Positions 28,966 through 44,977 of a DNA stretch of 64,000 nucleotides are shown one piece after another. The position numbers and the translations under genes are program-made. How positions within the stretch are numbered: position 1 is the stretch's first letter; every line of letters starts with the position of its first letter. Location of the stretch: the NCBI GenBank assembly GCA_017627975.1, contig JAGAFT010000091.1, positions 62,001-126,000 on the forward strand, given 5' to 3'. The notes beneath the pieces are model-generated. The model was not told the DNA's origin and ran no database searches. It worked only from the letters and a program-made list of their open reading frames with translations. This stretch comes from Oscillospiraceae bacterium (lineage in GTDB: Bacteria; Bacillota_A; Clostridia; Oscillospirales; Oscillospiraceae).

Positions 28966-29487
28966 TCAGTCGATGTCCCGGAAGACATCTTTGTTTTTCA
29001 TAAAGTATTCCGCACCGCTGTAGACGGTGGTCAGGAGAATCAGTCCCGTACAGATCAGATCCAGGCGCGGAGAAGGGAAGACCGTCATCAGGCCCAGCGC
29101 TATCATCGTAACGGCAGTCTTAATCTTTCCGGACCAGGCTGCCGCAATGACACGGTGCTGCTCAACGGCAATGAGACGAAGGCCCGAGACCGCAAACTCC
29201 CGAAACAGCACAATCGCCACAGCCCAGCCGGGCATCTGCCCATTGTCTACGAAGTAGCACATCGCTGCCAGCACAAGCATCTTGTCCGCCAGAGGGTCCA
29301 TGAATTTGCCGAAATTCGTAATCTGGTTGTAATGCCGCGCGATATAACCGTCAAGCAGATCCGACAGGCATGCCGCAATGTAGACAATAAGCGCAGGGAC
29401 CGCAAGGCCGCGATAGGCAAGAATCAGCCAGACAGGGATCAGTATGATCCGCAATACTGTTATTTTATTCGCCGTGGTCTTTAACAC
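28966..29487 (-). CDS. pgsA: CDP-diacylglycerol-glycerol-3-phosphate 3-phosphatidyltransferase
   Basis: The 173-residue membrane protein makes phosphatidylglycerophosphate, the first committed step to phosphatidylglycerol. The CDP-alcohol phosphotransferase signature is intact: DLLDGYIARHYNQITNFGKF followed by MDPLADK, i.e. DG-x2-AR-x8-G-x3-D-x3-D. Four or more membrane helices follow. It lies 18 bases upstream of cysS and 15 bases after rimO, inside a tight minus-strand operon. Confidence 0.95.
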   Translation of the reverse strand: MLKTTANKITVLRIILIPVWLILAYRGLAVPALIVYIAACLSDLLDGYIARHYNQITNFGKFMDPLADKMLVLAAMCYFVDNGQMPGWAVAIVLFREFAVSGLRLIAVEQHRVIAAAWSGKIKTAVTMIALGLMTVFPSPRLDLICTGLILLTTVYSGAEYFMKNKDVFRDID

Positions 29488-29502
29488 GGACCAATCATCT
29501 CC

Positions 29503-30843
29503 CTATCCCTCAATACAGGTGCCGAACAGCACACCGTTTTCCGCCCGTTCAATCCGGACACGGACGATCTCGCCGGGACGGACATCGCCGCCCACAACGG
29601 CAAAGGAATCAATCTCGGGCGAATCGGCCCAGGTCCGTCCGACCATCAGACCGCCGTCCTCTTCCCATGGGCCTTCGATCAGAACGTCCAGCTCCCGGTT
29701 GACCTGTGCCTCGGCAAATGCGTCCAGGATTTGCCCCTGCAGCTCAAGTACCTGATCGGCGCGCCGGGAGGCCTCCTCCGCGTCGCAGTGTTCCATGCGA
29801 GCTGCCGGTGTCCCTTCCTCAGGAGAAAAGGGGAACACACCGACCCGCTCAATCTTGACTTCTTTTATATAGTTCAGCAGCTCCTCAAATTCGGCCTCAC
29901 CCTCACCGGGAAGCCCTGTGATGAGGCTGGTCCGCAGTACAAGATTCGGTATTCTTTGCCGAAGCGTCTGCAGCAGAACACGGATCTCATCTCCGGTTCC
30001 GCGCCGGTTCATCCGTTTCAGAATGTCGTTGTTGATATGCTGGATCGGAATGTCAAGATATTTTACTACTTTGCTGTTGCGTGCAATCTCATCAATCAGC
30101 TCATCGTCAAACTGATCCGGGTAGAGATAGTGGAGCCGAATCCAGCGCAGTTCCGGAATCTCCGAAAGACGGCGGATCAGTTCCGAAAGACAGCGCTTTC
30201 CGTACCGATCTGTACCGTATCGGGTAATGTCCTGGGCGATCACAATGAGCTCCTTCACACCCGAAGCCACAAGATCCTCGGCCTCGCGGACAACTGCTTC
30301 CAGCTCTCGGGAGCGATATCTTCCGCGGATAAAGGGAATGGCGCAGAAGGCGCAGAAGTTATCACAGCCCTCCGCAATCCGCAGCCAGGCCCAGCCCGGA
30401 CCGGTGGAGACATCCCGCGGCGTCTCATCCACAGGTGCGCTCTGGTCTCCGAAGGCACGGTAGTTCTGATGGGACAGGACCGCTTCGGCCGCCTTTACAA
30501 TCTCGCCAAAGCTTCCAACCCCGAGCACTGCGTCAATCTCAGGAAGCTCTTTTTGAATTTCGTCCTGATAGCGCTCGGAAAGACAGCCTGTCACAATGAT
30601 GCCGCCGAGTCTGCCCTCCGCTTTGAGCTGTGCATGCTCAAGGATACAGTCGATGGCCTCGGATTTGGCTGCGTCGATAAAGCCACAGGTGTTGATAATG
30701 GCCAGGTCCGCCCCATCCGAGTCCGCCACAGGCGTAAAACCGGCCTCACGCATCAGATGATGCATCTGTTCGCTGTTCACCAGGTTCTTGGCGCATCCCA
30801 GCGAAACAAGAGAAAATGTTTTTTGACAGAACTGTTCTCTCAT
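29503..30843 (-). CDS. rimO: Ribosomal protein S12 methylthiotransferase
   Basis: The 446-residue radical SAM enzyme adds a methylthio group to an aspartate of S12. The UPF0004 domain is at the N-terminus (SLGCAKNLVNSEQMHHLM), with cluster Cys residues. The radical SAM triad sits in AEGCDNFCAFCAIPFIRG, and a TRAM domain lies at the C-terminus (about 380-446). I use the ATG at 30843, which has AGGAA upstream. The longer reading adds 51 residues that are not part of the family. Confidence 0.95.
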   Translation of the reverse strand: MREQFCQKTFSLVSLGCAKNLVNSEQMHHLMREAGFTPVADSDGADLAIINTCGFIDAAKSEAIDCILEHAQLKAEGRLGGIIVTGCLSERYQDEIQKELPEIDAVLGVGSFGEIVKAAEAVLSHQNYRAFGDQSAPVDETPRDVSTGPGWAWLRIAEGCDNFCAFCAIPFIRGRYRSRELEAVVREAEDLVASGVKELIVIAQDITRYGTDRYGKRCLSELIRRLSEIPELRWIRLHYLYPDQFDDELIDEIARNSKVVKYLDIPIQHINNDILKRMNRRGTGDEIRVLLQTLRQRIPNLVLRTSLITGLPGEGEAEFEELLNYIKEVKIERVGVFPFSPEEGTPAARMEHCDAEEASRRADQVLELQGQILDAFAEAQVNRELDVLIEGPWEEDGGLMVGRTWADSPEIDSFAVVGGDVRPGEIVRVRIERAENGVLFGTCIEG

Positions 30844-30859
30844 TGTACGTTCCTGTTTC

Positions 30860-31354
30860 TTATTCCTCATCGTTCCATGAGCATTGCACATTTTCCAGTG
30901 CCCGGCGGATTTCGTCCCAGGAATAGCCGCGGCGAGACATGGATGCCGATACCTTCCGAACTTCGTCCCGGTCATCCGGGTTCCGAAGCTTGGCACGGAT
31001 CAGGCGCTCCAGTGTGCCGGCCATCTGCGGCATCTCTTCCAAGGCCTCCTCACGGAGGTCTTTCGGTATTCCTCTTCGGGAGAGCTCAGACAGAGCCCGT
31101 TTTGCTCCGTATCCTTTGCGGACACAGCTGCGCACCACCGAGGCGGCATAGGCCCTGTCGTTCAGAAAGCCGAGCTCTTCCAGCCGGTTCAGCACTTCGT
31201 CCAGCTCCGCATCCCCGCAGCCGGTCTTTTGCTTCAGCTTGTCGGCCAGTTCCTTCCGCGAATGCGCCCGGAAACTCAGCAGGCTGACCGCTTTTTCCAG
31301 CAGAGGATTCTTTTCCGCTGCTTTGGGGGCATGGTTTTTATCCTCAATCCTCAT
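30860..31354 (-). CDS. recX: Regulatory protein RecX
   Basis: The 164-residue all-helical protein restrains RecA filament growth and activity. Three-helix RecX repeats show as ALSLLSFRAHSRKELADKLKQK-type helices (here AVSLLSFRAHSRKELADKL), LEELGFLNDRAYAASVVRS, and RRGYSWDEIRRALEN. The length is usual. recA is not in the window. It sits between prmC (27 bases) and rimO (16 bases). Confidence 0.93.
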   Translation of the reverse strand: MRIEDKNHAPKAAEKNPLLEKAVSLLSFRAHSRKELADKLKQKTGCGDAELDEVLNRLEELGFLNDRAYAASVVRSCVRKGYGAKRALSELSRRGIPKDLREEALEEMPQMAGTLERLIRAKLRNPDDRDEVRKVSASMSRRGYSWDEIRRALENVQCSWNDEE

Positions 31355-31381
31355 TTGTCGTGGAAATTTTCAGCTTGTTTA

Positions 31382-32242
31382 TTATTCTTCCAGCCGCCCG
31401 ATGACCACACGGTCAGTACCGCCGCTGTCCTGGCGGAACTCTGCCTCGGCGAAGCCGCCTTCCAGAAGCATGGCGCGCACAGGTTCTGCTTCACCCTCGC
31501 CGACTTCAAAGAAGATCAGGCCGCCGGGCTTCAAAACGGAGCGCCAGTACTTGATGATTCCCTTGTAGAACTTCAGACCGTCTTCACCGCCGTCCAGCGC
31601 CCAAATGGGTTCGTGGTCGCGTACAGAGGGATCCAGGCCCATAATCTCGCCGCTGGCAATGTAGGGGGGATTGGAAACGATCACATCAAACTGTCCCATC
31701 CCCATGGGGGGAGAGGCCAGGGCATCTGCCTGCAGGCAAAGTACTCTGGAGTTCAGGCGGTTCATGGTCACATTCTCCCGGCAGACCTGCAGAGCGCTGG
31801 CGCTGATATCCACCGCCACCAGCTTTGTCGCCGGAAGCTCTTTGGCAATCGCACAGGCAATACATCCGCTGCCGCAGCAGAGGTCCAGTACCCGCGCGTC
31901 CATTTTCCGGCCGGTGAGAAACTCTTTAACCGCGTCAATAAGAACCTCGGTGTCCATGCGCGGAATCAGCACATCCGGTGTAATCACCATCGGCAGACCA
32001 TAGAATTCCCATGTGCCTGTAATATAGGCCACAGGTTCTCCGGCAAGACGACGGTCCACATAGGACGAAACCCGGTCCACCACTTCTTCTGTGGTATAGA
32101 GGTTTAAATCCCGCAGCAGCTCGGCTACCGGTTTTCCGGCAGCATGAGCCACAAGAAGTCTCGATTCCAGCTGATAGCCGGGGATCTCCGCCTGCATCAG
32201 CCTCTTCCGGGTCATCAGGGTCAGATCATTGTAAGTTCTCAA
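31382..32242 (-). CDS. prmC: Peptide chain release factor N5-glutamine methyltransferase
   Basis: The 286-residue SAM-dependent enzyme methylates the Gln of the GGQ motif in RF1/RF2. An N-terminal helical domain (about 1-75) binds the release factor. The methyltransferase domain has VLDLCCGSGCIACAIAKEL (SAM loop) and VSNPPYIAS (catalytic NPPY). prfA is usually next to prmC, but here the neighbours are recX and the YqhQ-type gene. Confidence 0.96.
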   Translation of the reverse strand: MRTYNDLTLMTRKRLMQAEIPGYQLESRLLVAHAAGKPVAELLRDLNLYTTEEVVDRVSSYVDRRLAGEPVAYITGTWEFYGLPMVITPDVLIPRMDTEVLIDAVKEFLTGRKMDARVLDLCCGSGCIACAIAKELPATKLVAVDISASALQVCRENVTMNRLNSRVLCLQADALASPPMGMGQFDVIVSNPPYIASGEIMGLDPSVRDHEPIWALDGGEDGLKFYKGIIKYWRSVLKPGGLIFFEVGEGEAEPVRAMLLEGGFAEAEFRQDSGGTDRVVIGRLEE

Positions 32243-32272
32243 GTGTCTGTCCTCGTTCCTGTTGTGATTGGT

Positions 32273-33235
32273 TCAGGCGCCCCAGGCGTCGGAACCCTTT
32301 TCGTCCGGAATCACCAGCTCCATGGCCCGAATGGCGCATTCAATCATGCTGTCGTCCGGCTCGTTGGTCGTGATCCGCTGCAGCCACTTTCCGGGAGCGG
32401 AGAGAATTGCCGAGAGCGTGTTATCGTGCAGACCGCACCAGCGGTTGATCTCATAGCTGATTCCGACAACCACCGGCAGAAGCAGCAGATGCACGCCCAC
32501 TCGCGCAAAAGGATTGGCCACGCGGACGGTGGCATTGACCAGAATGCTTACCAGCACCACCACCAGCAGAAAGCTTGTGCCGCATCGAGGGTGGAAACGG
32601 CTTTCCGGACGGACGTTTTCCACCGTAAGGGGTTTGCCGTGCTCATAGCAGAAAATGGTCTTATGTTCCGCACCGTGATAAGAAAAGAGGCGCTTGATGT
32701 CCTTCATATGAGCCACCAGCGACATATAAATCAGAAGGATTGCAACCTTTGTAAGGCCCTCGGCAAAGTTCCTCACAAGATAGCTTTGCGTCAGAGGCTT
32801 GATTGCCGCAACGATGAAGGTGGGAAGAAAGATAAACAGAAACACGCTCAGTGCAATGCCGAGGACCACGGCAACGTAAATGATGAGTTTCTCTGCCTTT
32901 TCTGCGGGGAAGTGTTCGCTGATCCATTTGTCAATCTTGTCCGGGTCCCCCTGTTCTTCCAGCGGAACAAGGCTTGCGGAGTACATCAGGGCCTGCATGC
33001 CCTTGACCATTGAGTCAATAAAGGTGACGCAGCCGCGTACCAGAGGCCAGCCGAAGAAGGGATACTTTTCTCGCAGCAGGTGCAGGTCCTCAACTTTTTC
33101 GGTGAGTCCATCCTCTGTCCGGCAGACAATCGCCTGCTTCCGCGGACCACGCATCAGAATACCCTCGATCAGGGCCTGACCGCCGATGGAGGTCTTAAAT
33201 CCGCAGCTTGTGACTTTTTCATGTTTTCCAGCCAT
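32273..33235 (-). CDS. DUF1385 (YqhQ-like) membrane protein
   Basis: The 320-residue protein has the DUF1385 opening (KTSIGGQALIEGILMRGP). Multiple membrane helices follow (VVLGIALSVFLFIFLPTFIVAA), with the conserved YHGAEHKTIFCYEHG and SRFHPRCGTSFLLVVVL. The His/Glu/Cys pattern suggests metal binding. A YqhQ family gene directly before prmC is a familiar Firmicute arrangement. I use ATG 33235 with TTGGAG upstream. Confidence 0.88.
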   Translation of the reverse strand: MAGKHEKVTSCGFKTSIGGQALIEGILMRGPRKQAIVCRTEDGLTEKVEDLHLLREKYPFFGWPLVRGCVTFIDSMVKGMQALMYSASLVPLEEQGDPDKIDKWISEHFPAEKAEKLIIYVAVVLGIALSVFLFIFLPTFIVAAIKPLTQSYLVRNFAEGLTKVAILLIYMSLVAHMKDIKRLFSYHGAEHKTIFCYEHGKPLTVENVRPESRFHPRCGTSFLLVVVLVSILVNATVRVANPFARVGVHLLLLPVVVGISYEINRWCGLHDNTLSAILSAPGKWLQRITTNEPDDSMIECAIRAMELVIPDEKGSDAWGA

Positions 33236-33322
33236 AGTGTTCTCCAAAGTGAAGGAATTTACGAGTTGAGTCTCGCGGTTTGCGATACCGGATGCGATCC
33301 GGCATCATCTGTTAACCTGTGT

Positions 33323-33342
33323 TTCAGCCCGTGCGGGCTGAA
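33323..33342 (-). terminator. Short hairpin after the histidine kinase gene
   Basis: A perfect 8-bp stem (TTCAGCCC, 33323-33330, with GGGCTGAA, 33335-33342) has a GTGC loop and lies just after the kinase stop. There is no U-tract, so it may only be a partial terminator or stability element. Confidence 0.4.
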
Positions 33343-33345
33343 GTA

Positions 33346-34341
33346 TCAGGGCCTGGTGCTGATGGGGAGAGATAGGATGACCATGCATCCGCCGCCGTCG
33401 GCGTTGCGGATGTCCATCTTTCCCTTGTGGCGGGTGATGATCTCGTCGCAGACTGCCAGACCAATGCCGGTACCGCGGTTCTTCGAGCTGCCCTTGTAGA
33501 ACTTCTCCTTGACATGTGGAAGCTCCGCCTCGGGAATCCCGTTTCCGTAATCCCGGAAACAGATCTTCACATAGCCTCCGTCGCGTTCCAGACTGACATC
33601 AATGATCTTGCCGTCTCCGCCGTGGATCATCGCATTGTCCAGCAGATTTAGAAACACCTGCTTCAGACGCTCGGAATCGCCGGGGATCATGGGAATATCT
33701 TCATCCGGCGATTTGTAGTTGACATCCATCCCGGCCTGCTTCATGAGCTTGCCATAAGTGAACAGCGCATCTTCCAGCTCTTCGGCAATGTCGATCATTC
33801 CGATCCGAAGATTGAAGCGTCCGTCCTGAATCCGGGTGAACTCCAGCAGTTCCGTCACCATCCCGGTCAGGCGTTCCGCCTCCTTGGAAATGATGTTGAT
33901 GCCGCGCAGGGAATCGCCCTGCACCGCAGGGTCAAATTTGATGGTCTCACTCCAACCCGTGATGGCCGTCAGCGGTGTGCGCAGTTCATGAGAGACCTGG
34001 GAAATAAAGTCCGTCCGGGCCTTTTCCGCCTGGGCGACCTTCTCTGACATGTCATTGATGGCGTCGGTCAGCTGACCGATTTCGTTGTCACTGCGGTCTT
34101 CCAGCTTGCTGCCGTAACTCCCGGAGGCGATTTCGGCCGCAAACTCCGTCAGCCGGTCAATGGGCTCCGAGACATTCTTCCAGAACCAGAAGAGCAGATA
34201 GATCATGTAAAAACAGATCAGCACGAGGACACAGACAGCCAGAATCATGTAATCGCGTGTGACCGCCCAAATGCTCAGCAGCATGAGGATCAGCGCGGCG
34301 ATGACCGAAACTGTCAGCTGTGTCCGAAGATTCTTAAACAT
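33346..34341 (-). CDS. Sensor histidine kinase with almost no extracellular domain
   Basis: The 331-residue kinase has two adjacent membrane helices (about 8-27 and 32-53) with only a few residues between them. A HAMP domain (about 55-105) follows. The HisKA phosphoacceptor is in VSHELRTPLTAITGW, and the HATPase block has NLLDNAMIHGG (N box), DYGNGIPE (G1) and GTGIGLAVCDEI (G2). With the OmpR-type regulator upstream it forms a two-component pair. The near absence of a periplasmic loop points to a cue in the membrane or cytoplasm. Confidence 0.93.
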   Translation of the reverse strand: MFKNLRTQLTVSVIAALILMLLSIWAVTRDYMILAVCVLVLICFYMIYLLFWFWKNVSEPIDRLTEFAAEIASGSYGSKLEDRSDNEIGQLTDAINDMSEKVAQAEKARTDFISQVSHELRTPLTAITGWSETIKFDPAVQGDSLRGINIISKEAERLTGMVTELLEFTRIQDGRFNLRIGMIDIAEELEDALFTYGKLMKQAGMDVNYKSPDEDIPMIPGDSERLKQVFLNLLDNAMIHGGDGKIIDVSLERDGGYVKICFRDYGNGIPEAELPHVKEKFYKGSSKNRGTGIGLAVCDEIITRHKGKMDIRNADGGGCMVILSLPISTRP

Positions 34342-34415
34342 AAACGTGTACTTCCTGAAACGATAGTTCTTACCGGTCCGTTAAAGCGCAATCAGCCCGG
34401 ACAGTGTGCCGCGGA

Positions 34416-35105
34416 TCAGTAGCCCCACTTATAACCGTAGCCCCAGACCGTGGTGATGTATTCCGGCTCGGTAGGGTCGGATTCAATCTTTATGCGCAGA
34501 CGGCGGATGTTCACGTCGACGGTCTTGAGCTCGCCGCTGAAATCCGAGCCCCAGACTGCGCTGAGAATGTCTTCGCGGCTCATGGCCTTGCCGGGGTTTT
34601 CCATAAACAGCTTCATCAGCTGATACTCGATCTGGGTGAGCTTGAGACGCTGGCCGTCCTTCTCAAGAGTGCGGTTGCGCGGATTAAGCACGAAAGGACC
34701 GCTGACCAGCTCGACGTTGGCCGAATCCTCTTCATCGGCGCCGAGACGGCGAACCAGAGCGTCCACACGTGCGGTGAGCTCCGCCGGAGAGAAGGGCTTT
34801 GTTACATAATCGTCCGCGCCGGTCATGAGCCCCGTGACCTTGTCGATCTCCTGACTCTTGGCAGTGAGCATAATAATGCCCATTTTGGACCCGGAGGCGC
34901 GAATTCTGCGACATACCTCAAAACCGTCTATATCTGGCAGCATAACGTCGAGCAGGGCAAGGCAGATGTCCGGATTGGCCTTGACCTTTTCGAGCGCCTC
35001 TGTTCCGGTGGCGGCTTCAATCGGCTCGTATCCGCTGCGGCGAAGGTTGATCACGACAAAACTGCGGATATTGCTTTCGTCTTCCATGACCAGTATTTTC
35101 TTCAT
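34416..35105 (-). CDS. OmpR/PhoB-family response regulator
   Basis: The 229-residue regulator has a receiver domain whose phospho-acceptor is D53 in LALLDVMLPDID, with the usual MEDE acidic pocket and the TKPF lysine. The winged-helix DNA-binding domain (about 130-229) ends DVNIRRLRIKIESDPTEPEY followed by TVWGYGYKW, the classic OmpR C-terminus. It is transcribed with the kinase 74 bases downstream. The GGAGGG upstream of the ATG is strong. Confidence 0.95.
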   Translation of the reverse strand: MKKILVMEDESNIRSFVVINLRRSGYEPIEAATGTEALEKVKANPDICLALLDVMLPDIDGFEVCRRIRASGSKMGIIMLTAKSQEIDKVTGLMTGADDYVTKPFSPAELTARVDALVRRLGADEEDSANVELVSGPFVLNPRNRTLEKDGQRLKLTQIEYQLMKLFMENPGKAMSREDILSAVWGSDFSGELKTVDVNIRRLRIKIESDPTEPEYITTVWGYGYKWGY

Positions 35106-35158
35106 CTTGTTATCCCTCCTGATCTCCCGAAAGAGACATGGTTACAAACTGACAAGTA

Positions 35159-35167
35159 ATTATAACA
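35159..35167 (-). promoter_or_regulatory. Extended -10 promoter of the two-component operon
   Basis: On the minus strand the sequence TGTTATAAT gives an extended -10 (TG-n-TATAAT). No good -35 is present, which fits the extended -10 class. Confidence 0.55.
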
Positions 35168-35234
35168 TAGTTCAATCAAAAATGGTAGTCAAAGTTTCAG
35201 AAAAAAGAAAAACGGATGAAAAAACTTTGCATGC

Positions 35235-35263
35235 TTGCATCGGATGAGGAAAACTGTTAGAAT
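35235..35263 (+). promoter_or_regulatory. Promoter of the GTPase-NYN gene, predicted leaderless
   Basis: The -35 box TTGCAT (35235-35240), 17 bases, and an extended -10 box TG-T-TAGAAT (boxes end at 35263) leave only seven bases before ATG 35271. No Shine-Dalgarno is found at a usable distance. The mRNA would start at or next to the AUG. Confidence 0.6.
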
Positions 35264-35270
35264 TCGTCCC

Positions 35271-37901
35271 ATGGATAAGAAAAAGAGAATTGCCCTGAGC
35301 ATCACGGCGCACGTCGACGCGGGAAAGACCACGCTGGCCGAAGCCATGCTCTTCGAGGCGGGACAACTGAAAAAACGGGGAAGAGTGGATCACCGCGATT
35401 CCGTGCTGGACTATGAGGATTTTGAGAGAAACCGGGGAATCACGGCGTTTTCAAAGCAGGCGGTCTTCTCCTACGGTTTGACGGAATTCAGTCTGATCGA
35501 CACGCCGGGACATGCGGATCTTTTTGCTGAGACCAGACGGGGCCTGCGTGTGCCGGATGCGGCGATCCTCGTGATCAGCGGCAGTGAGGGAATCCAGGCC
35601 GATACCGGTGTGATCTGGGAGCTTCTGCGGACACGGGAGATTCCCACCTGGATCTTTGTGTCCAAAATGGATCTTGCCTGCGGCAGCCGGGAAGCGCTTT
35701 TTTCGGAACTGAAGGAAAGACTTTCAGACGCCGTTGTCGACTTCTCAGCTCCCGTCGAAACGATCTTTGAAAAAGCAGCTGAACTGGATGAAGCCTGCCT
35801 TGACGTTTATCTGGAACATGGTGCAATCCCGGATGACGTCCTCGCCGGTGCGATCATGGCCGGAAGGGTTTTTCCGTGCTTTTTCGGCTCGGGCCTGCAG
35901 CTGACCGGCGTGAAGGAATTTCTTGACGGACTGGACCGCTGGACGCTTGCGCGCTCATGGCCGGACCGCTTTTCCGCTTTATGCTATAAGATCAGCCGGG
36001 ACGCCCGGGGCCAGCGGCTGACACAAGTCAAGATTACCGGCGGCAGTCTGTCCGTACGGGATCCGCTGCAGTATCGGACCGCGGACGGTGCCCTCAGGGA
36101 AGAAAAGGTCACCGGAATCCGGATCTACTCCGGGGCACGGTATGAGACGGTCGAGCGGGCGGAAGCAGGGCAGGTCTGCAGCCTGCTCGGCCTTACCGGA
36201 ACCGCGGCCGGCTGTGTTCTGGGCGAAGAGAACGAAGTACAGCAGGAGAGCGTGGAATCCGTTCGGAGATATATCCTGCGCTTTGAAACCAGGCAGGACC
36301 CGGTAATCCTGCTGGAACAGCTCAGACAATTGAGCGAGGAGCTGCCGGAGCTCTCGCCGCGAGCCGGCCGGGACGGAATCAGTGTCTGCCTCTCGGGCAG
36401 GATGCAGGGAGAAATGCTGAAAGCTCTGCTTCTGGAGCGTTTTGGACTTCGTGCCAGTCCGGAGGAAGGACAGCTTATTTATAAGGAGACTGTCACAAAA
36501 AAGGTGGAGGGAGTCGGCCATTTTGAACCGCTCCGCCATTACGCCGAGGTTCATCTGGTTCTGGAACCCCTTCCGCCGGGCAGCGGAAACGTACTGGAGT
36601 CCGGCTGCCCCGAAGATACCCTGAATCGAAACTGGCAGAATCTGATTCTGGACGCCCTCTGTCATGAGACGCTTCCGGGCGTTCTGGCCGGGGCAGAACT
36701 GACGGATACACGCATCTGTCTGGTCAGCGGCAGGGCGCATCCAAAGCACACCGAGGGCGGTGATTTCAGGGAAGCGGCCCGAAGGGCACTGCGACACGGG
36801 CTGATGCAGGCCGAATGCCGCCTGCTGGAGCCGGTCTACCATTTTGAAGTAAAACTTCCAAGCGAGCAGCTGGGCCGTGCCATCGGAGATTTCCGCGCCA
36901 TGCATGCACAACTGGACAGTCCCCGACAGGAAGAGCGCTTCAGCACCTTGAGCGGGGAAGTGTTTGTCAGCGAATTCGGCGATTATCCGGAGACGCTTCT
37001 TTCCTACACCCACGGATTCGGAAAGGTAACCGTGCACCCGGCGGGATACCGCCCCTGCCACAATGAGGCGGAGGTTTTGGAACAGATCGGCTACCTGGCA
37101 GAACGGGATACGGAGTGGCCTGCGGACTCCGTCTTCTGCGCACATGGCGGGGGCTACGTGGTCCCGTGGCAGGAAGTGACACAGTACATGCACCTTCCCT
37201 CCTTCCTGGAAGAACGGAGCCGCCGTGCCCAGAGCGAGGCTGCGCTGCACCGGCTGCAGCGGATCGACGATCGGGAACTGGAAGCCATCATGCTCAAAGA
37301 GTTCGGCCCGATCCGCCGCCCCTCTGTCGGATCCGCTCTGAACGAAGAGAAGAGCCGCGATGGAAAGAGGAAAGCACCCGAAGAGCAGGCGGAAGGAAAG
37401 ACGACCGTTATTCTGGACGGGTATAACTTCATTTTTGCCGAACCGGAACTGAAAGTACTTGCTTCGGATCATCTGGGCGCTGCCAGAGAACGCCTGATGG
37501 ACCGTCTATCCAACTACAGCGGGTTTACCGGGAGAGAAGTGATTCTGGTGTTTGACGGTTTCCGAACCGCCGGAAATCCCGGTTCGCGCAGCGCGCATGC
37601 CAACATCCGCGTAGCGTTTACACCCGAAGGAGAGAGCGCCGACGCGTATATCGAACGGCTGGCCTCCGAAATCGGGAAAAACGACCGGGTTTCGGTGGTG
37701 ACCGGGGACACTATGATCCGCATCTCGGCAATGCGCTCCGGTGTGCTGCGCATTTCTCCGAATGAATTCAGGCTGGAGCTGGAAGAAGCGGAAAAACATC
37801 TGCAGGAAATTCTGATGAAGAGCAATTTCCTGGCTCATCAGACCAGCGGCGACGAGGCCGGGACGGTAAAACAGGAAAAGAAAGAGAAAACGAAACCATG
37901 A
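35271..37901 (+). CDS. TetM/EF-G-like translational GTPase fused to a Rae1/YacP-type NYN endoribonuclease
   Basis: The 876-residue chain begins with a translation-factor GTPase: P-loop AHVDAGKTT (13-21), switch RGIT, DTPGHADLFAE, and S131-K-M-D134 as an unusual G4 (normally NKxD). Domains II-V follow the TetM pattern (ELTDTRICLVSG; LEPVYHFEVKLPSEQLGRAI). The domain IV tip is HPKHTEGGDF (490-499), unlike TetM's YSPVSTPADF. A charged linker (about 670-708) leads to a NYN nuclease (710-850) with acids D716 (ILDGYN), D762 (VFDGF), E788/D791 (ESADAYIE) and D813 (VTGD), the Rae1/YacP pattern. Its stop overlaps pepT (ATGA). Probable ribosome-bound mRNA cleavage factor; this is inference. Confidence 0.85.
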   Translation: MDKKKRIALSITAHVDAGKTTLAEAMLFEAGQLKKRGRVDHRDSVLDYEDFERNRGITAFSKQAVFSYGLTEFSLIDTPGHADLFAETRRGLRVPDAAILVISGSEGIQADTGVIWELLRTREIPTWIFVSKMDLACGSREALFSELKERLSDAVVDFSAPVETIFEKAAELDEACLDVYLEHGAIPDDVLAGAIMAGRVFPCFFGSGLQLTGVKEFLDGLDRWTLARSWPDRFSALCYKISRDARGQRLTQVKITGGSLSVRDPLQYRTADGALREEKVTGIRIYSGARYETVERAEAGQVCSLLGLTGTAAGCVLGEENEVQQESVESVRRYILRFETRQDPVILLEQLRQLSEELPELSPRAGRDGISVCLSGRMQGEMLKALLLERFGLRASPEEGQLIYKETVTKKVEGVGHFEPLRHYAEVHLVLEPLPPGSGNVLESGCPEDTLNRNWQNLILDALCHETLPGVLAGAELTDTRICLVSGRAHPKHTEGGDFREAARRALRHGLMQAECRLLEPVYHFEVKLPSEQLGRAIGDFRAMHAQLDSPRQEERFSTLSGEVFVSEFGDYPETLLSYTHGFGKVTVHPAGYRPCHNEAEVLEQIGYLAERDTEWPADSVFCAHGGGYVVPWQEVTQYMHLPSFLEERSRRAQSEAALHRLQRIDDRELEAIMLKEFGPIRRPSVGSALNEEKSRDGKRKAPEEQAEGKTTVILDGYNFIFAEPELKVLASDHLGAARERLMDRLSNYSGFTGREVILVFDGFRTAGNPGSRSAHANIRVAFTPEGESADAYIERLASEIGKNDRVSVVTGDTMIRISAMRSGVLRISPNEFRLELEEAEKHLQEILMKSNFLAHQTSGDEAGTVKQEKKEKTKP

Positions 37902-39112
37902 GAGCATATGAAAGACTGCTGAAATACGTAAGCATCCACACATCGAGCAAAGAAGGGGAGAAGACGACCCCTTCCACAGAGCGCCAGAAAGACCTGAGCA
38001 GGATTCTGGCAGATGAGATGATCGCCATGGGCCTGCAGGAAGTCTATGTGGATGAAAATGCCTATACCTATGGTGTTTTGCCCGCTGCTGAGGGAATGGA
38101 GGATAAGCCCTGCATCGGGCTGATCGCCCATCTGGATACCATCCCGGATGAGGACTTTCCGGGCTTTGGGGTCAAGCCGCAGCTTGTTGCGAACTATGAC
38201 GGAGGTGCGCTGGCGCTTGGTGAAAGCGGGCGGGTCCTGTCTCCGGATCAGTTTCCGGATCTGAAAACGCTTTGCGGCCATACTCTGATCACAACCGACG
38301 GAACGACGGTCCTCGGCGCAGACGACAAGGCGGGTATTGCCGAAATCCTGACGGCCTGTGAGATCCTGAAGAAGGAAAACCTGTCCCACGGGAGAGTGGC
38401 GCTGTGCTTCCCGCCGGACGAAGAAATCGGGCACGGTGCTGCCCTGATGCAGTTGGAGCGCCTCGGCGCAGCGTTTGCCTTTACGGTGGACGGGGGAGAT
38501 CCGGCGGAAGTGAATTTCGAGACGTTCAACGCGGCGTCTGCCGATGTCGTGCTGCACGGGGTGAATGTGCATCCCGGCGAAGCAAAGGGAAAAATGCGCA
38601 ATGCAGCCCATCTGGCAATGGAGTTTGACGCGCTTCTGCCGGCCGCCGAGCGCCCGGAACGGACGGAGGGACATGAGGGCTTTTTCCACCTGACTTCCAT
38701 GAAAGGCGATGTGGAAAAGGCGGAACTCCATTATATTCTGCGGGATCACGACGCCGCGCATTTCAACGTGCGAAAGACGATGCTGGCGCAGGCGGCAAAA
38801 TACATGTGCGAACGCTATGGGGAGGGAGCGGCAGAGCTTACGATCCGCGACCAGTACAGAAACATGGAAGAGGTGTTATGCCGGCACCGTGACATCATTG
38901 CACGCACGGACGAAGCCATCCGGAAAGCAGGACTGGAGCCGAAGCACGTTCCGATCCGCGGAGGCACCGATGGAGCGCAGTTATCTTTCCGCGGCCTGCC
39001 CTGTCCGAACCTCGGCACAGGCGGAGCGGGCTTCCACGGACCTTTTGAGCATATCTCCGCAGAGAACATGGACAAGGTCGTGGAGATCCTGATCCATCTT
39101 CTCACCGCGTAA
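37898..39112 (+). CDS. pepT: Peptidase T (tripeptide aminopeptidase)
   Basis: The 404-residue M20-family di-zinc aminopeptidase removes the N-terminal residue from tripeptides. Zinc ligand blocks are IAHLDTIPD, VLGADDKAGIAEI, FPPDEEIGHGA and the C-terminal GPFEHISAENM. The family's dimerisation stretch VNVHPGEAKGKMRNA is present. The start lies inside the stop of the GTPase-nuclease gene (ATGA), so translation is coupled. Pairing a tripeptidase with a putative ribosome-rescue factor is odd and may reflect clearing of short abortive peptides; that link is a guess. Confidence 0.95.
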   Translation: MRAYERLLKYVSIHTSSKEGEKTTPSTERQKDLSRILADEMIAMGLQEVYVDENAYTYGVLPAAEGMEDKPCIGLIAHLDTIPDEDFPGFGVKPQLVANYDGGALALGESGRVLSPDQFPDLKTLCGHTLITTDGTTVLGADDKAGIAEILTACEILKKENLSHGRVALCFPPDEEIGHGAALMQLERLGAAFAFTVDGGDPAEVNFETFNAASADVVLHGVNVHPGEAKGKMRNAAHLAMEFDALLPAAERPERTEGHEGFFHLTSMKGDVEKAELHYILRDHDAAHFNVRKTMLAQAAKYMCERYGEGAAELTIRDQYRNMEEVLCRHRDIIARTDEAIRKAGLEPKHVPIRGGTDGAQLSFRGLPCPNLGTGGAGFHGPFEHISAENMDKVVEILIHLLTA

Positions 39113-39177
39113 ACCCGTCAGATCGCCTGAAAATCCGATGCGGCAGACCGGAGCTGATTCCGGCGGTGAAACAGAAA

Positions 39178-39207
39178 GCAGGGTCGCTCCTTTGGGAGCG
39201 ACCCTGC
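39178..39207. terminator. Bidirectional terminator
   Basis: A perfect 13-bp stem (39178-39190 with 39195-39207) with a TTTG loop lies between the convergent pepT and FMN oxidase genes. Confidence 0.75.
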
Positions 39208-39234
39208 CGGTTTGAAGAGGGGGAAAGACGAAAA

Positions 39235-40254
39235 TCAGCCCTGCCAGATCTTATCGGAAGTGATGTCCTTCAGCGTGGCGGCACCGCACATGGTCATCGT
39301 GCTCTTGAGTTCGCCGATGATCTTATCCATATAAACCCGGTAGCCTTCTTCTCCGGCTCCGTAAATGGCCGTGAGAACCGGACGGCCGATCAGCACGCCG
39401 TCCGCACCGAGCGCCAAGGCACGGAAAATGTCCAAACCGGAACGGATCCCGCCGTCGACGAGAATGGTGATCTTACCCTTGACCTGGCGGACAATGGAGG
39501 GGAGAACCTCGGCCGTAGAGGGGACACCGCCCTGTACACGGCCGCCGTGGTTGGACACGACGATGGCCGCGGCCCCGGCGTCGACCGCCTTCTGGGCTCC
39601 GGCCGGGGTCATGATGCCCTTAATGACAAAGGGCATTTTGGCATAGGAGGTGATTTCCCTCATTTCCTCGACGGACTTGCTTCCCGCATTGGGATTCATC
39701 GCCTTCAAAAAGGGAAGACCGGCTCCGTCAACGTCCATGCCGGCGGCAAAGATGTGGTTCTCGTTGAGAATATCGAGCTTTTCAAAAACGGCTTCCTTGT
39801 TCCAGGGCTTGATGATCGGCATGCCGACACCGTCGACCTTGATCATGTCCTGCACGGAAGCTTTCATGATCTCCGGGTTAACCCCGTCGCCGGTCAGCGC
39901 CATCAGACCGTATTCATAAGCGGCCTTGATAAGAATGGAGTTGTAGACGATATCATTGTACTTCGGACCGTAGTGCAGGTCGATGGCCCCGAGGGGAGCC
40001 ATAAAGATCGGTGCGGCAAACTTCCGTCCAAACAGCTTAAAGGAGATATCCGGATCGGTATTCGGACAGAGCGTGTCCATGTTGACGCAGATTTCCTGCC
40101 ATTTGTCAAAGTTGCGGGCGGCAACATTGCCGGGTGCTTTGCTGCCGGGACCGGGCATGGAATTGGCGCAGGCACGGCCGTTGCACACGGGACAGGCTTT
40201 GCAGTACGGTCCGACACATTCACAGGCCGCGGCGAGAACTTCATTATAATTCAT
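39235..40254 (-). CDS. FMN-dependent alpha-hydroxy-acid oxidizing protein with a cysteine-rich N-terminus
   Basis: The 339-residue enzyme has a TIM-barrel FMN domain. It carries the catalytic SNHGGR (His and Arg), MAPLGAIDLHYGPKYN near the start, and LVDGGIRSGLDIFRALALGADGVLIGRP at the phosphate site. Family members oxidise L-lactate, glycolate or related acids. The first 30 residues hold six cysteines (C11, C13, C18, C21, C24, C29; motif CKACPVCNGRAC), which could bind an iron-sulfur cluster or zinc and are not part of classical lactate oxidases. The substrate is unknown. Confidence 0.87.
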   Translation of the reverse strand: MNYNEVLAAACECVGPYCKACPVCNGRACANSMPGPGSKAPGNVAARNFDKWQEICVNMDTLCPNTDPDISFKLFGRKFAAPIFMAPLGAIDLHYGPKYNDIVYNSILIKAAYEYGLMALTGDGVNPEIMKASVQDMIKVDGVGMPIIKPWNKEAVFEKLDILNENHIFAAGMDVDGAGLPFLKAMNPNAGSKSVEEMREITSYAKMPFVIKGIMTPAGAQKAVDAGAAAIVVSNHGGRVQGGVPSTAEVLPSIVRQVKGKITILVDGGIRSGLDIFRALALGADGVLIGRPVLTAIYGAGEEGYRVYMDKIIGELKSTMTMCGAATLKDITSDKIWQG

Positions 40255-40315
40255 TACAGATCACTCCAAACGTGTAATTTGACCGGGGACCGGACTTATT
40301 ATCAGGCATGGCGGA

Positions 40316-41212
40316 TCAAAAGTCAAGACCGCTTCCGTCAAAAATCGGAATGTTTTCCTCGCCGACGGAAGAGAGCTCCTGCCAGAATCCGTCCTGCAGA
40401 CGGCGGGCATGCAGATAGTGGATCAGGTTCTCGTTCTCTTCCGCTGTGACCGTGCGGCAGAGTTCGGGAAACCTGGCTTCCAGACCGGGCATGGGCGTAT
40501 ATTGGCTCATGAGAGAAAAGAGAACGGTCCCCGGCGAAAAGCTGTCGGCAACATAGTCAATGACGTCCATGCTTTCGGCACTGTGACCCGGAAGAATCAG
40601 GTGCCGGATGATGACACCGCTCTGCAGCAGCCCGGCGTCATCAAAACGGCAGGAACCGCGCTGCCGGACCATCTCGGAGATGGCTGCGGAGGCGACCTCC
40701 GGGTAATCCGCCGCGGCGGAATAGCGTTTCGCCGTGTCGGAATTCAGGTATTTCAGATCCGGCATATAGACCTGTACAAGTCCCTCCAGAAGGCGCAGCG
40801 TTTCCGCTTTTTCGTATCCGGAACTGTTCCAGACAACCGGAATGCCGAGCTCCAGTCCGTCCAGTGCTTCGGCGATCACGCGGGTAAAGTGCGTCGGTGT
40901 AACAAGCTCAATATTATGGACGCCCTGATCCCGCAGGCGCAGCATCAGCGTGCGAAGCTCGGAAACGGAAAGAATTCTCCCGACACTCTTCCGGCTGATT
41001 TCACGGTTCTGACAGAAAACACAGCGGAGATTGCAGCCGGAGAAGAAAATAGTTCCGGCACCGCGCGTCCCGCTGATGCAGGGCTCTTCTCCGTAGTGCG
41101 GCGCGGCGCGGATGACACGCGGCAGCATAGGACTGACACAGACACCGCCGCCGGCATTTCCGGTACGCTGCGCCTGACAGGCCCGGGGGCAATCGCTGCA
41201 TATTTGCTCCAT
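40316..41212 (-). CDS. PflA-like radical SAM protein (COG1313 type)
   Basis: The 298-residue protein has the radical SAM cysteines in SGCNLRCVFCQN (CxxxCxxC), and an N-terminal Cys pair (CSDCPRACQA) as in PflX/COG1313 members. Downstream blocks include VTPTHFTRVIAEAL, GIPVVWNSSGYE and VQVYMPDLKYL, typical of that group. It probably activates a glycyl-radical enzyme or modifies an unknown target; no glycyl-radical enzyme gene is in the window. It has its own promoter (41283-41311) and GGAGG at its start. Confidence 0.86.
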   Translation of the reverse strand: MEQICSDCPRACQAQRTGNAGGGVCVSPMLPRVIRAAPHYGEEPCISGTRGAGTIFFSGCNLRCVFCQNREISRKSVGRILSVSELRTLMLRLRDQGVHNIELVTPTHFTRVIAEALDGLELGIPVVWNSSGYEKAETLRLLEGLVQVYMPDLKYLNSDTAKRYSAAADYPEVASAAISEMVRQRGSCRFDDAGLLQSGVIIRHLILPGHSAESMDVIDYVADSFSPGTVLFSLMSQYTPMPGLEARFPELCRTVTAEENENLIHYLHARRLQDGFWQELSSVGEENIPIFDGSGLDF

Positions 41213-41282
41213 AGATACCTCCGAATGCGAAAAGATTCACATGCATGGGCAAAATGACAAAAAAAAGTACTTGCCGGGAGCA

Positions 41283-41311
41283 ATTATACCGTAGATTTGT
41301 ACATTATGCAA
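41283..41311 (-). promoter_or_regulatory. Promoter of the radical SAM gene
   Basis: On the minus strand, -35 box TTGCAT (41306-41311) and a perfect -10 box TATAAT (41283-41288) are 17 bases apart. The intergenic region is shared with the divergent pgk operon. Confidence 0.75.
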
Positions 41312-41357
41312 GAATCGAATAAAAGTTAGAAAAAACAATACATTTTTTGAAAAAATG

Positions 41358-41366
41358 TGGTAAAAT
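41358..41366 (+). promoter_or_regulatory. Extended -10 promoter candidate of the glycolytic operon
   Basis: TGG-TAAAAT (TG-n-TAAAAT) lies about 70 bases before the pgk start, in a very AT-rich stretch. No convincing -35 is seen at the right distance. Confidence 0.45.
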
Positions 41367-41436
41367 ACCTTCGAAAAGCAACCAATCCAGCACAAACAGC
41401 TTTACTTATTTATTATCATTTTCAGGAGGTCAAGAA

Positions 41437-42627
41437 ATGAATTACAACAAGAAGACAATCTATGACGTAGACGTCAAGGGCAAGAAGGTTCTGCTCCGCT
41501 GTGACTTCAATGTTCCTCAGAACAAGGAAACCGGCGAGATCACCAGCAACAAGCGTATCGTAGCAGCTCTGCCGACCATCCGCTATCTGCTGGACAACGG
41601 CGCCGCTGTCATCGCATGCTCTCACCTTGGCAAACCCAAGGGCGAGTGGAAGACCAAACTCACGCTGGCTCCGGTCGCACAGCGGCTTTCCGAGCTCCTC
41701 GGTCAGGAAGTAATCTTTGCCAAGGACATCATCGGTGAAGATGCCCATGCCAAGGCGGCCGCACTGCAGCCCGGTCAGATCATGCTGCTTGAGAACCTTC
41801 GCTTTGACATTCGCGAAGAGAAGAACGACGCCGACTTTGCAAAGGCTCTGGCCGATATGGCAGAGATCTTTGTTTCCGATGCTTTCGGTACCGTGCATCG
41901 CGCTCATGCCTCCACTGCCGGCGTTGCCGCATACCTGCCTGCCTATTCCGGCCTGCTGGTCGACAAGGAACTGAGCATCATGGGCAAGGCTCTTGATGAC
42001 CCGAAGCGTCCCTTCGTCGCCGTCCTCGGCGGTGCGAAAGTTTCCGACAAGATTGCCGTTATCAACAACCTGCTGGAAAAGGCCGACACCATCATCATCG
42101 GCGGCGGTATGGCTTATACCTTCCTGAAGGCCCAGGGCAAGGAAATCGGCAAGTCCCTGCTGGAGGAAGACAGACTGGACTATGCCCGCGAAATGATCCA
42201 GAAGGCTGCCGACAAGGGCGTGAAGTTCCTGCTTCCGGTTGACCATCTCTGCGCAGCCGAGTTCTCCGCCACGGCCGAACCGGTCCTCGCCGAAGACGAC
42301 ATCCCCGCAGACCTCATGGGCATGGACATCGGCCCGAAGACCGCAGAGCTCTATGCCGCAGCGGTAAAGGGTGCCGGTACCATCGTGTGGAACGGACCCA
42401 TGGGCGTGTTTGAGTTTGACGCATTCGCCGGCGGCACGAAAGCCATGGCGAAGGCCCTGGCCGAGTCCGGCGCGGTGACAATCGTCGGCGGCGGCGACTC
42501 CGCTTCCGCAGTCGAAAAGCTCGGCTTCGCCGACAAGGTGACCCATATCTCCACCGGCGGCGGCGCTTCTCTGGAATTCCTTGAGGGCAAGGAGCTTCCG
42601 GGTGTTGCCTGCCTGCTGGACAAGTAA
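41437..42627 (+). CDS. pgk: Phosphoglycerate kinase
   Basis: The 396-residue glycolytic enzyme transfers a phosphate from 1,3-bisphosphoglycerate to ADP. It has RCDFNVPQ (substrate site), HLGKPKGEW (Lys of the basic patch), [14 protein letters not shown] and the nucleotide loop [16 protein letters not shown] 41437 is preceded by a strong AGGAGGT (41424-41430). It is first in a pgk-tpiA-gpmI-tmk operon, with a GC-biased codon style typical of highly expressed genes here. Confidence 0.97.
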
Positions 42628-42666
42628 AGCAAACAAAAAGAACTATTTTTAAGGAGTTTTACAGAT

Positions 42667-43440
42667 ATGAACAGAAAGTACCGCAAAACCGTTATCGCCG
42701 GCAACTGGAAAATGAACCAGCTGGTTTCCGGCGTAAAGCCCTTCATGGAAGAGCTCAAGGAGAATCTCCCCAAGACCCGCAGCTGTGACGTTGTGCTCTG
42801 CACGCCGGCTGTCATGATCCCGACGATGGTGAAGGCGGGAAAGGATTGCCGTGTTGCCGCCGGCGGCGAGGATGTCTCGAAGTACGAGAAGGGTGCCTAT
42901 ACCGGTGAGATCTCCGCCGATATGCTGGCGGACGCCGGTGCAAAGTACTGCATCGTCGGTCACTCCGAACGCAGAGAGTATCACCATGAAAGCGACGCAC
43001 TGGTCAATGAGAAGGCCAAGGCTCTGCTAAACAAGGGCATCATCCCGATCATCTGCGTTGGTGAGAGCCTGGAGCAGCGTGAGAAGAACCTGACCATGGA
43101 ATACATCGCCTACCAGGTCTGTGCCGCGCTGTCCGGCATTGACGGAACGCAGGTCCGCCGCTGTGTCATCGCCTATGAACCCATCTGGGCCATCGGCACC
43201 GGTAAGACCGCGACCGCAGAGCAGGCAGAAGAGGTCTGCTGTGAAATCCGTGCCGTCATCCGCAAGCTTTACGGTGCCAGAAGCGCCCGCGCCGTCAGCA
43301 TCCTCTACGGCGGAAGCATGAATGCCAAGAACGCGGCTGAGCTGCTGGCACAGCCCGATATCGACGGCGGCCTGATCGGCGGCGCTTCCCTGAAGCCGGC
43401 TGATTTCGCCACCATCGTCGCCGCAACGGCCCAGGAGTAA
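42667..43440 (+). CDS. tpiA: Triosephosphate isomerase
   Basis: The 257-residue TIM barrel interconverts DHAP and glyceraldehyde-3-phosphate. Active-site blocks are AGNWKMNQ (Asn/Lys), VGHSERREYH (His) and AYEPIWAIGTGKTAT (Glu plus mobile loop). The phosphate loop LYGGSMNAKNAAEL and GGLIGGASLKPADF complete the fold. AAGGAG lies upstream. It is 39 bases after pgk. Confidence 0.97.
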   Translation: MNRKYRKTVIAGNWKMNQLVSGVKPFMEELKENLPKTRSCDVVLCTPAVMIPTMVKAGKDCRVAAGGEDVSKYEKGAYTGEISADMLADAGAKYCIVGHSERREYHHESDALVNEKAKALLNKGIIPIICVGESLEQREKNLTMEYIAYQVCAALSGIDGTQVRRCVIAYEPIWAIGTGKTATAEQAEEVCCEIRAVIRKLYGARSARAVSILYGGSMNAKNAAELLAQPDIDGGLIGGASLKPADFATIVAATAQE

Positions 43441-43447
43441 TCTGACG

Positions 43448-44977
43448 ATGAAGGCAGCGATTAAGAACCGCGCGGTTCTGATCATTATGGATGGCTACGG
43501 CATTGCCCCTCCCACAGCGGGCAATGCCATTGCCCAGGCAAAAAAACCCAATCTGGACGAGCTTTTTGCCAAATATCCCAACTCCCAGCTTCAGGCCTCC
43601 GGCCTGGATGTCGGTCTCCCGGCCGGCCAGATGGGGAACTCCGAAGTCGGACATACCAATATCGGTGCCGGCCGTGTTGTGTTCCAGATCCTCCCGAAGA
43701 TTTCCAAAGAGATCGAGGAAGGAAAGTTCTTTCAAAACCCCGTCTATCTCAAGGCGATCCGTGACGCAAAGGAGAACGGAAAGGCGCTGCACATCCTCGG
43801 GCTTCTGTCCGACGGCGGCGTACACAGCCACCTGACGCATATCTTCGCCATGCTGGAAATGGCCAAACGGGAAGGCGTTGAAAAGGTCTTTGTCCACTGC
43901 TTCCTGGATGGGCGCGATGTTCCGCCCACCAGCGGAGCCGGTTTTGTCCGTGCGCTGCAGGAAAAGTGCGACGAGCTCGGCAATGCCCGGATTGCAACCG
44001 TGCAGGGACGTTTCTGGGGGATGGACCGCGATAAGCGCTGGGACCGTGTTGAGGCCGGATATGATGCCATCGTCCGCGGCATCGGTGTGGAGGACCCGGA
44101 TGCGGTCCATGCTGTGGAAGCAAGCTATGCCGAGAACGTAACGGACGAGTTTGTCAAGCCGATCGTAGTCTGCCGCGAAGGTATGATTAACACCGGAGAC
44201 AGCGTGATCTTCATGAACTTCCGTCCGGATCGCGCACGCGAGATGACCTGGGCGCTGAATCTGCCGGACTTCGACGGATTTGAGAGAAAGAAGACCGTTT
44301 ATCCGCTCTCGTATGTCTGCACGGCGCAATACGATGAAAACCTCACACTGCCCATCGCGTACCCGCCCGAAGAGATCGTGAATACCATCGGTGACCTTGT
44401 CAGCGAGCAGGGGCTGAAGCAGTTCCGCGTCGCGGAGACCGAGAAGTATGCGCATGTGACCTTCTTCTTCAACGGCGGGGTGGAGAAGCAGACCGAAGGG
44501 GAGGACCGCTGCCTGGTTCCCTCTCCGAAAGAATATGCCACCTATGACCTTATCCCGCAGATGAGCGCGGAAAAGGTCTGTGATAAGGTTGTGGAAGCGC
44601 TGCAGTCTGAGAAATATGACCTGATCGTCTGCAACTTTGCCAACTGTGACATGGTCGGGCATACCGGCATCATGGACGCGGCCATCAAGGCAGTGGAGAC
44701 GGTGGATGCCTGCATGGGACGGATCGCCGCAGAGATCGAGAAACATCCGGATACCGTTCTGCTGGTGACAGCGGACCACGGCAATGCTGACTGCATGTTC
44801 GATGAGACGGGCAAGGTCAACACTGCCCACACCACGAATCCGGTACCCTTCCTGGTAACAAAGGAAGGGGCATCCCTGAAAGATGGACGGCTTGCCGATA
44901 TTGCGCCCACGATCCTGCAGATCATGGGCCTGAAGCAGCCGAAGGAGATGACCGGCAAATCGCTCCTCAGCGAATGA
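43448..44977 (+). CDS. gpmI: 2,3-bisphosphoglycerate-independent phosphoglycerate mutase
   Basis: The 509-residue di-manganese enzyme isomerises 3- and 2-phosphoglycerate. Metal and catalytic blocks are IMDGYGIA, GQMGNSEVGHTNIGAG (Ser nucleophile), GLLSDGGVHSH, FMNFRPDRAREM, NFANCDMVGHTG and VTADHGNAD. The length is normal. It starts 7 bases after tpiA, whose final codons provide the AGGAG ribosome site. Confidence 0.97.
   Translation: MKAAIKNRAVLIIMDGYGIAPPTAGNAIAQAKKPNLDELFAKYPNSQLQASGLDVGLPAGQMGNSEVGHTNIGAGRVVFQILPKISKEIEEGKFFQNPVYLKAIRDAKENGKALHILGLLSDGGVHSHLTHIFAMLEMAKREGVEKVFVHCFLDGRDVPPTSGAGFVRALQEKCDELGNARIATVQGRFWGMDRDKRWDRVEAGYDAIVRGIGVEDPDAVHAVEASYAENVTDEFVKPIVVCREGMINTGDSVIFMNFRPDRAREMTWALNLPDFDGFERKKTVYPLSYVCTAQYDENLTLPIAYPPEEIVNTIGDLVSEQGLKQFRVAETEKYAHVTFFFNGGVEKQTEGEDRCLVPSPKEYATYDLIPQMSAEKVCDKVVEALQSEKYDLIVCNFANCDMVGHTGIMDAAIKAVETVDACMGRIAAEIEKHPDTVLLVTADHGNADCMFDETGKVNTAHTTNPVPFLVTKEGASLKDGRLADIAPTILQIMGLKQPKEMTGKSLLSE

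Follow-up and report, generated by a model that had tools for sequence, protein, structure and literature searches.

Translational GTPases of the EF-G and Tet types bind the A-site side of the ribosome. What separates Tet proteins from EF-G is the set of loops at the domain IV tip (PMC4342817; for loop III also PMC4750697), and loop III of TetM has been called functionally the most important in the available text of PMC4750697. Rae1 (YacP) of Bacillus subtilis is described as an endoribonuclease of the ribosomal A site (PMC6613710). In 2015, Atkinson described Tet proteins from ten Clostridiales species that had gained an RNase domain of YacP-like NYN type and suggested that they may represent a new resistance mechanism (PMC4342817). 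A literature search, with subscription papers mostly outside it, returned only that paper for "NYN domain" and "ribosomal protection protein" together, gave no title on the fusion among its best-ranked later matches, and found no experiment on any fused protein. The fusion goes unmentioned in the available portions of PMC11780869 and PMC8161019.

Positions 35271-37901 (+) of the window, the whole 64,000-nucleotide stretch of Oscillospiraceae DNA analysed, hold one intact open reading frame of 876 residues with no internal stop; an alternative start is possible at 35244, which would give 885 residues. In the product, a GTPase of EF-G/Tet type (residues 1-642) is connected through a linker of 70 residues to an NYN nuclease of Rae1/YacP type (residues 713-853), which makes it a Tet-NYN fusion as defined by a Tet-type GTPase and a YacP-like NYN domain in one chain. 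An earlier note made from the sequence alone had claimed an intact single-chain fusion with an NYN domain of this type, and both claims hold, each half being verified with Pfam profiles, sequence matches to proteins of solved structure, and fold predictions. An assembly error is ruled out, as the fusion recurs across genome samples and is also present in the complete records of two named species, Agathobacter rectalis (NZ_CP143948.1) and Monoglobus pectinilyticus (NZ_OY725736.1).

The GTP-binding domain (residues 5-223; 35283-35939, +), assigned by motif positions, alignment, and the EF-Tu-type profile PF00009 (3.7e-40), has an intact P-loop at 13-20 and DTPGH at 77-81, with SKMD at 131-134 in place of NKxD, a trait of the window's clade. 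EF-G domains IV (400-514) and V (517-599) also exceed their Pfam cut-offs, and EF-G domain II falls slightly under its own (23.8 bits, cut-off 27). Beyond domain V lies a C-terminal extension (596-642; 37056-37196, +) common to unfused relatives, which stop near its end. The linker (643-712; 37197-37406, +) is predicted to be disordered at 679-708 and contains a short helix (665-684; 37263-37322, +; IDDRELEAIMxxEFGPIRRP), many columns of which are invariant or nearly so among 56 aligned proteins, nearly all of them at least 50% identical to the window protein; the motif is looser among distant fusions, and the structure model predicts a helix at 667-678 with low confidence. The nuclease domain (713-853; 37407-37829, +) scores 124.8 bits on the NYN_YacP profile (cut-off 24.6). 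The whole-protein model leaves the relative placement of the two halves undefined (pTM 0.64), and the 50 matches shown by its fold search were EF-G, EF-2, RF3, TetM, and spliceosomal GTPases. As all of these are GTPases, a separate model and fold search were made for the nuclease half, which has the Rae1 fold together with the conserved acids. Profile and fold checks of both halves thus return NYN for the C-terminal part and EF-G/Tet type for the GTPase.

The acids D716 (37416-37418), D762 (37554-37556), D791 (37641-37643), and D813 (37707-37709), all on the plus strand, are invariant in 104 of 104 NYN domains (51 fused and 53 free), as is E795. The earlier note had given the GTPase motifs and these acids at the correct residues, but had put E788, just ahead of D791, on a par with it, and E788 is less conserved. 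D716 is presumably catalytic, by analogy with NYN/PIN enzymes. In the window's clade, the nuclease carries TGD without the subsequent EQ.

Free Rae1 has a conserved C-terminal tail, which includes the residues aligned to B. subtilis 164-166. Judged by eye, the tail motif is present in 49 of 52 free copies versus 3 of 50 fused ones. Because this motif was drawn by eye, a profile was built as a check from half of the free copies, with the held-out half as the test and a line at 8 bits chosen by the analyst. The line was reached by 25 of 26 held-out free copies (median 29 bits), which are interrelated and so do not count as independent successes, versus 6 of 50 fused copies (median -0.4); the window protein itself scored -0.4 bits. 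A control profile from an equal-size piece at the domain start recovered 26 of 26 free and 50 of 50 fused copies. A worn version of the tail is kept in one fused group (L049 to L105 type) and in no member of the window's clade. The tail counts omit nine loci that were contig-cut, duplicate or short, or very divergent, and the NYN tree described below omits seven. By these scores, fused nucleases have mostly lost the tail of free Rae1, a point that is new here. In B. subtilis, the R166P change in Rae1 was found alongside frameshifts among suppressors of efp loss, a class that, in the authors' interpretation, lacks the activity of YacO or of Rae1 (PMC6613710, available text); as a single missense change, R166P may simply unfold Rae1.

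The fusion is widespread. Precomputed Pfam annotation places an NYN domain in 119 of the best 120 of 7994 scored relatives, which span 98% to ~50% identity; the sole exception among these best 120 is a near relative of 630 residues (P0031). Genome samples at the family, class, and phylum levels, which share a few genomes, were built from genomes with relatives, beginning at a Ruminococcaceae assembly (L002, G001). Copies were called fused or free by frame length (in the class sample, at least 840 residues for fused and at most 225 for free), with frame lengths and row handles compiled by hand. At 110 of 114 loci, NYN frames longer than 225 residues all carry the GTPase C-terminal region and shorter frames never do; the other four are matches below the cut-off.

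The family sample has NYN in 92 of 150 genomes, and 87 of its 93 rows have frames of at least 814 residues. The other six are contig-edge pieces (four, of which two are too short to tell) or, by their coordinates, one gene split into two rows, and these 92 NYN-bearing genomes held no identifiable free Rae1. The class sample has NYN in 249 of 391 genomes, or 251 rows, with G001 and G023 taken from the family-sample results and second, sub-cut-off matches in G287, G352, and G393 excluded. These rows comprise 128 of fused length in 127 genomes, 108 of free length, 13 of middle length, one contig-cut fusion (G232), and one below the cut-off (G399); the free-length count includes a 190-residue row of G375 that is probably a cut fusion, as both pieces reach contig ends. 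A separate rae1 beside the fusion is clear in just one of the 249 NYN-bearing genomes (G480, with one copy of each). The phylum sample has NYN in 117 of 219 genomes, with 102 rows of free length, 12 fused, two of ~305 residues, and one below the cut-off; none of its genomes has two NYN matches. Among individual genomes, G284 (1.8 Mb; possibly a mixed assembly) has two distinct fused proteins (L070, L080). In L144 (G491) and L147 (G202), the GTPase and NYN portions are split between two frames that overlap, a pattern such as a frameshift or an error in sequencing would leave.

The fusion stands in for free Rae1 in the sampled genomes, a finding that is new here and bears out, at all three levels, the earlier note's suggestion that the organism uses it in place of the free enzyme. 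Simple arithmetic gives ~35 of the 391 class genomes expected to have both copies if the two were independent, versus the one observed. This comparison does not serve as a significance test, because one old event accounts for most of the pattern; with roughly a single fusion event behind it, the exclusivity does not amount to many independent tests. On balance, the fusion is rather likely to be the Rae1 of these Clostridia, a nuclease that cuts mRNA in a ribosome-dependent way and is docked by a GTPase of its own.

An unlikely alternative is that the NYN domain matures rRNA or tRNA while the GTPase positions it on ribosomal subunits during assembly or recycling, which would make the protein a ribosome-biogenesis factor. 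Its roots are an older proposal for YacP-like NYN domains in rRNA/tRNA maturation (quoted in the available text of PMC4342817) and the co-transcription of B. subtilis rae1 with a homologue of a 23S rRNA methyltransferase (PMC6613710), yet the latter source describes Rae1 as an A-site endoribonuclease. The distribution also fits poorly, since an NYN match is missing from 142 of the 391 class genomes, unlike what would be expected for a core maturation enzyme; this absence may mean either that the gene is dispensable or that it was missed through incomplete assemblies.

The simplest reading of two phylogenies is that the Rae1-type fusion arose in one old event. All 23 fused rows of a 47-row GTPase tree form one clade with support 100, in a tree made by a quick method with two long-branch outgroup rows, one of three intended outgroup rows placed among the unfused, uneven letter composition, and L144, L145, L147, and five duplicate loci omitted. 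On the 104-row NYN tree, 2 changes suffice to explain the fused label, and shuffled labels required 35 on average (0 of 500 shuffles were as low). The branch parting fused from free domains has weak support (72), and a tree in which fused rows are held together is not rejected (p 0.58, fit slightly better). Repeated fusions found no support in either tree. One free NYN domain (G394, L062) nests inside the fused clade of the quick NYN tree. Its tail motif looks intact and the constrained tree is no worse, so the domain could equally well come from an unfused sister or from a fusion that broke up. The same genome (L149, L150) has this free NYN, which groups with fused domains, and an unfused GTPase on a different contig.

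The GTPase half departs from canonical TetM at the tip of domain IV. Loop III (residues 487-499; 36729-36767, +) reads GRAHPKHTEGGDFR in the window protein and GLYYSPVSTPADFR in TetM and TetO; it is of the GxxHxKHTxGGDF type, and all 31 aligned relatives, fused and unfused, have GxxHxKHTxGGDFR. On NCBIfam models, the window protein scores 355.2 bits for general resistance (cut-off 775) and 224.1 for the M/W type (cut-off 1100), and the A. rectalis fusion, which carries a TetM-family annotation, scores 389 and 262 and fails both. All four fused proteins scored (P0001, P0024, P0034, and the A. rectalis copy) fall under the curated Tet cut-offs, which positive control L131 passes. One of four fusion genomes examined for a second match (G077) encodes a separate protein that passes the Tet(M/W) cut-offs, with 821 and 1228 bits. 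Given the sub-cut-off scores and the replaced loop III, tetracycline protection, and with it a canonical tetracycline-removing role, appears unlikely. The earlier note's label of TetM-like thus fails in the drug sense, and its mention of drug-bound ribosomes is unsupported.

These comparisons weigh directly on the 2015 suggestion that the protein is a tetracycline ribosomal protection protein with an added RNase aiding resistance. The top-scoring NCBIfam model and solved structures are indeed those of Tet proteins, some public records name members TetM/TetW/TetO/TetS family (two of four named rows among the best 120 of 7994), and the A. rectalis copy is on a record labelled "plasmid". The scores below the cut-offs that a true Tet(M/W) protein passes, the replacement of the TetM loop III, the presence of both protein kinds in G077, and a housekeeping neighbourhood conserved in the window's near relatives nevertheless make this role improbable. 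The point matters for resistance surveys, as some public records call fusions tetracycline-resistance proteins and the four scored here fail curated cut-offs. The A. rectalis DFI.5.28 gene (L132, 5983-8784 of NZ_CP143948.1) is on a 252-kb circular "plasmid" record, is annotated as tetracycline-resistance, adjoins a BrnT toxin/CopG antitoxin pair, and fails the resistance cut-offs.

Downstream of the fusion gene is an M20-family peptidase gene (pepT-like; 37898-39112, +), the ATG of which overlaps the fusion stop by 4 bases (ATGA); the peptidase gene adjoins the fusion in near relatives L001-L003 too. Upstream, on the opposite strand, Pfam identifies genes for a response regulator, a histidine kinase, a DUF1385 protein, a PrmC-type methyltransferase, and a radical-SAM protein; the names pepT and rimO for neighbours are the analyst's reading. 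Among 13 neighbours compared, those adjacent to the fusion are kept in L002 and L003 and partly in L001, so that in near relatives the gene sits amid conserved housekeeping genes, and in seven distant loci none is kept save for one weak response-regulator match. The idea of an operon partner as a functional clue fell through, as neighbours are conserved in near relatives only. Promoter and terminator scans gave no more than chance, and one tRNA was the only RNA family found in the window. Across 28966-44977 of the window, most neighbours are 79-98% identical to those of L002, and the fusion (72%), the M20 peptidase (73%), and recX (60%) evolve faster. A strong 14-pair terminator-like hairpin lies past the peptidase gene at 39177-39208 (minus-strand reading), at a site count not above chance.

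No defence or mobile genes were seen among the 13 neighbours (six assessed by Pfam, the rest by eye). A stress or defence device, in which the GTPase would sense ribosomes damaged by drugs or phages and the nuclease would stop translation, could explain why a ribosome-binding module and a nuclease share one chain and why presence is patchy, but the ordinary look of these neighbours and the apparent single origin followed by long retention make it very doubtful.

Unfused relatives of the GTPase show how far the two halves depend on each other. A search of the 391 class genomes at E 1e-80, using the window protein as query, matched the GTPase in 163, of which 155 also have NYN and 8 lack it; a further 94 have NYN alone and 134 have neither. 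Unfused GTPases stop near residue 642 of the window protein and match it in loop III and in the C-terminal extension. They occur without NYN in at least seven class genomes (an eighth, G282, is contig-cut) and with free Rae1 in at least 12 by frame, with G219 and G486 in addition by score alone; G290 and G496 were removed from the unfused list because their NYN frames, of 481 and 585 residues, are too long for free Rae1. The unfused GTPase therefore lives beside Rae1 often but not always. The genomes that have it without NYN indicate that it has its own job and reject a strict dependence on Rae1, and the 94 NYN-bearing genomes without it at 1e-80 indicate that free Rae1 is independent of the GTPase. 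In 28 free-Rae1 genomes searched at 1e-45, 11 gave a GTPase match, one of a different kind (G605, 31%). At the same threshold, the GTPase was absent from all 20 genomes searched among the 58 NYN-less ones of the family sample. Matches on Ligilactobacillus salivarius plasmid records (H3-H15) are ~40% identical over 1-645 or 1-647, with the nuclease outside the match, and are annotated as TetM-family resistance.

Two independent activities joined without mechanistic meaning would accord with each half existing alone, in at least seven and in 94 class genomes, respectively, but is the least probable explanation, as the join and the linker helix persist over deep branches, the Rae1 tail is mostly lost, and both halves are gone in 20 of 20 losses searched.

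Under the favoured reading of a GTPase-docked Rae1, the GTP form of the GTPase half would bind the A-site side of the ribosome, as suggested by its family and fold, and the partly disordered 70-residue linker may let the NYN domain reach the decoding site. By analogy with B. subtilis Rae1, the nuclease would then cut mRNA on ribosomes with a long-empty A site; entry into the A site, the trigger, and the cut target are all inferred. The earlier note's proposal of delivery to the A site, with mRNA cleavage at that place, would thus be plausible. The GTPase may have assumed the anchoring job of the C-terminal tail, the loss of which is observed, and a fusion that arose once and displaced free Rae1 best fits the samples. 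A more detailed and more tentative version is that the GTPase reads the empty A site, hydrolyses GTP, and passes the tethered NYN domain to the decoding site. In this version, the fusion would have ousted free Rae1 a single time in Clostridia and rendered its ribosome-anchoring tail superfluous, and inspection of the ribosome would be combined with mRNA cleavage in one polypeptide. If true, a large part of Clostridia has swapped a free A-site nuclease for a GTPase-docked one, which would provide a natural experiment on nuclease recruitment and a handle on the role of the tail of free Rae1. Replacement, single origin, and tail loss together make the idea directly testable.

Compared with known systems, the protein shares the architecture of the Tet-NYN fusions of Atkinson (PMC4342817). 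The architecture has been known since 2015; new here are the replacement of free Rae1, the probable single origin, the tail loss in most fused nucleases, and the GTPase as a non-canonical TetM. That paper predates the A-site work on Rae1, and its available text does not treat replacement, single origin, or tail loss. B. subtilis Rae1/YacP (5MQ8, 5MQ9) is free, ~170 residues long, and has a tail conserved among free relatives, whereas the nuclease of the window protein is joined to a GTPase and has lost the tail. Tet(M) and Tet(O) differ from the fusion in the domain IV loop and the C-terminal end, and the fusion scores below their curated cut-offs and carries a nuclease. EF-G has the same domain layout and the G-x-x-H pattern of loop III in common with the fusion, but is 20-27% identical to the window protein in fold alignments and has no nuclease. 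The nearest GTPase relatives found are the unfused Tet-like GTPases (~645-690 residues), which are 37-45% identical and share loop III and the C-terminal extension, but unlike the fusion they end near residue 642, without the linker helix and without NYN.
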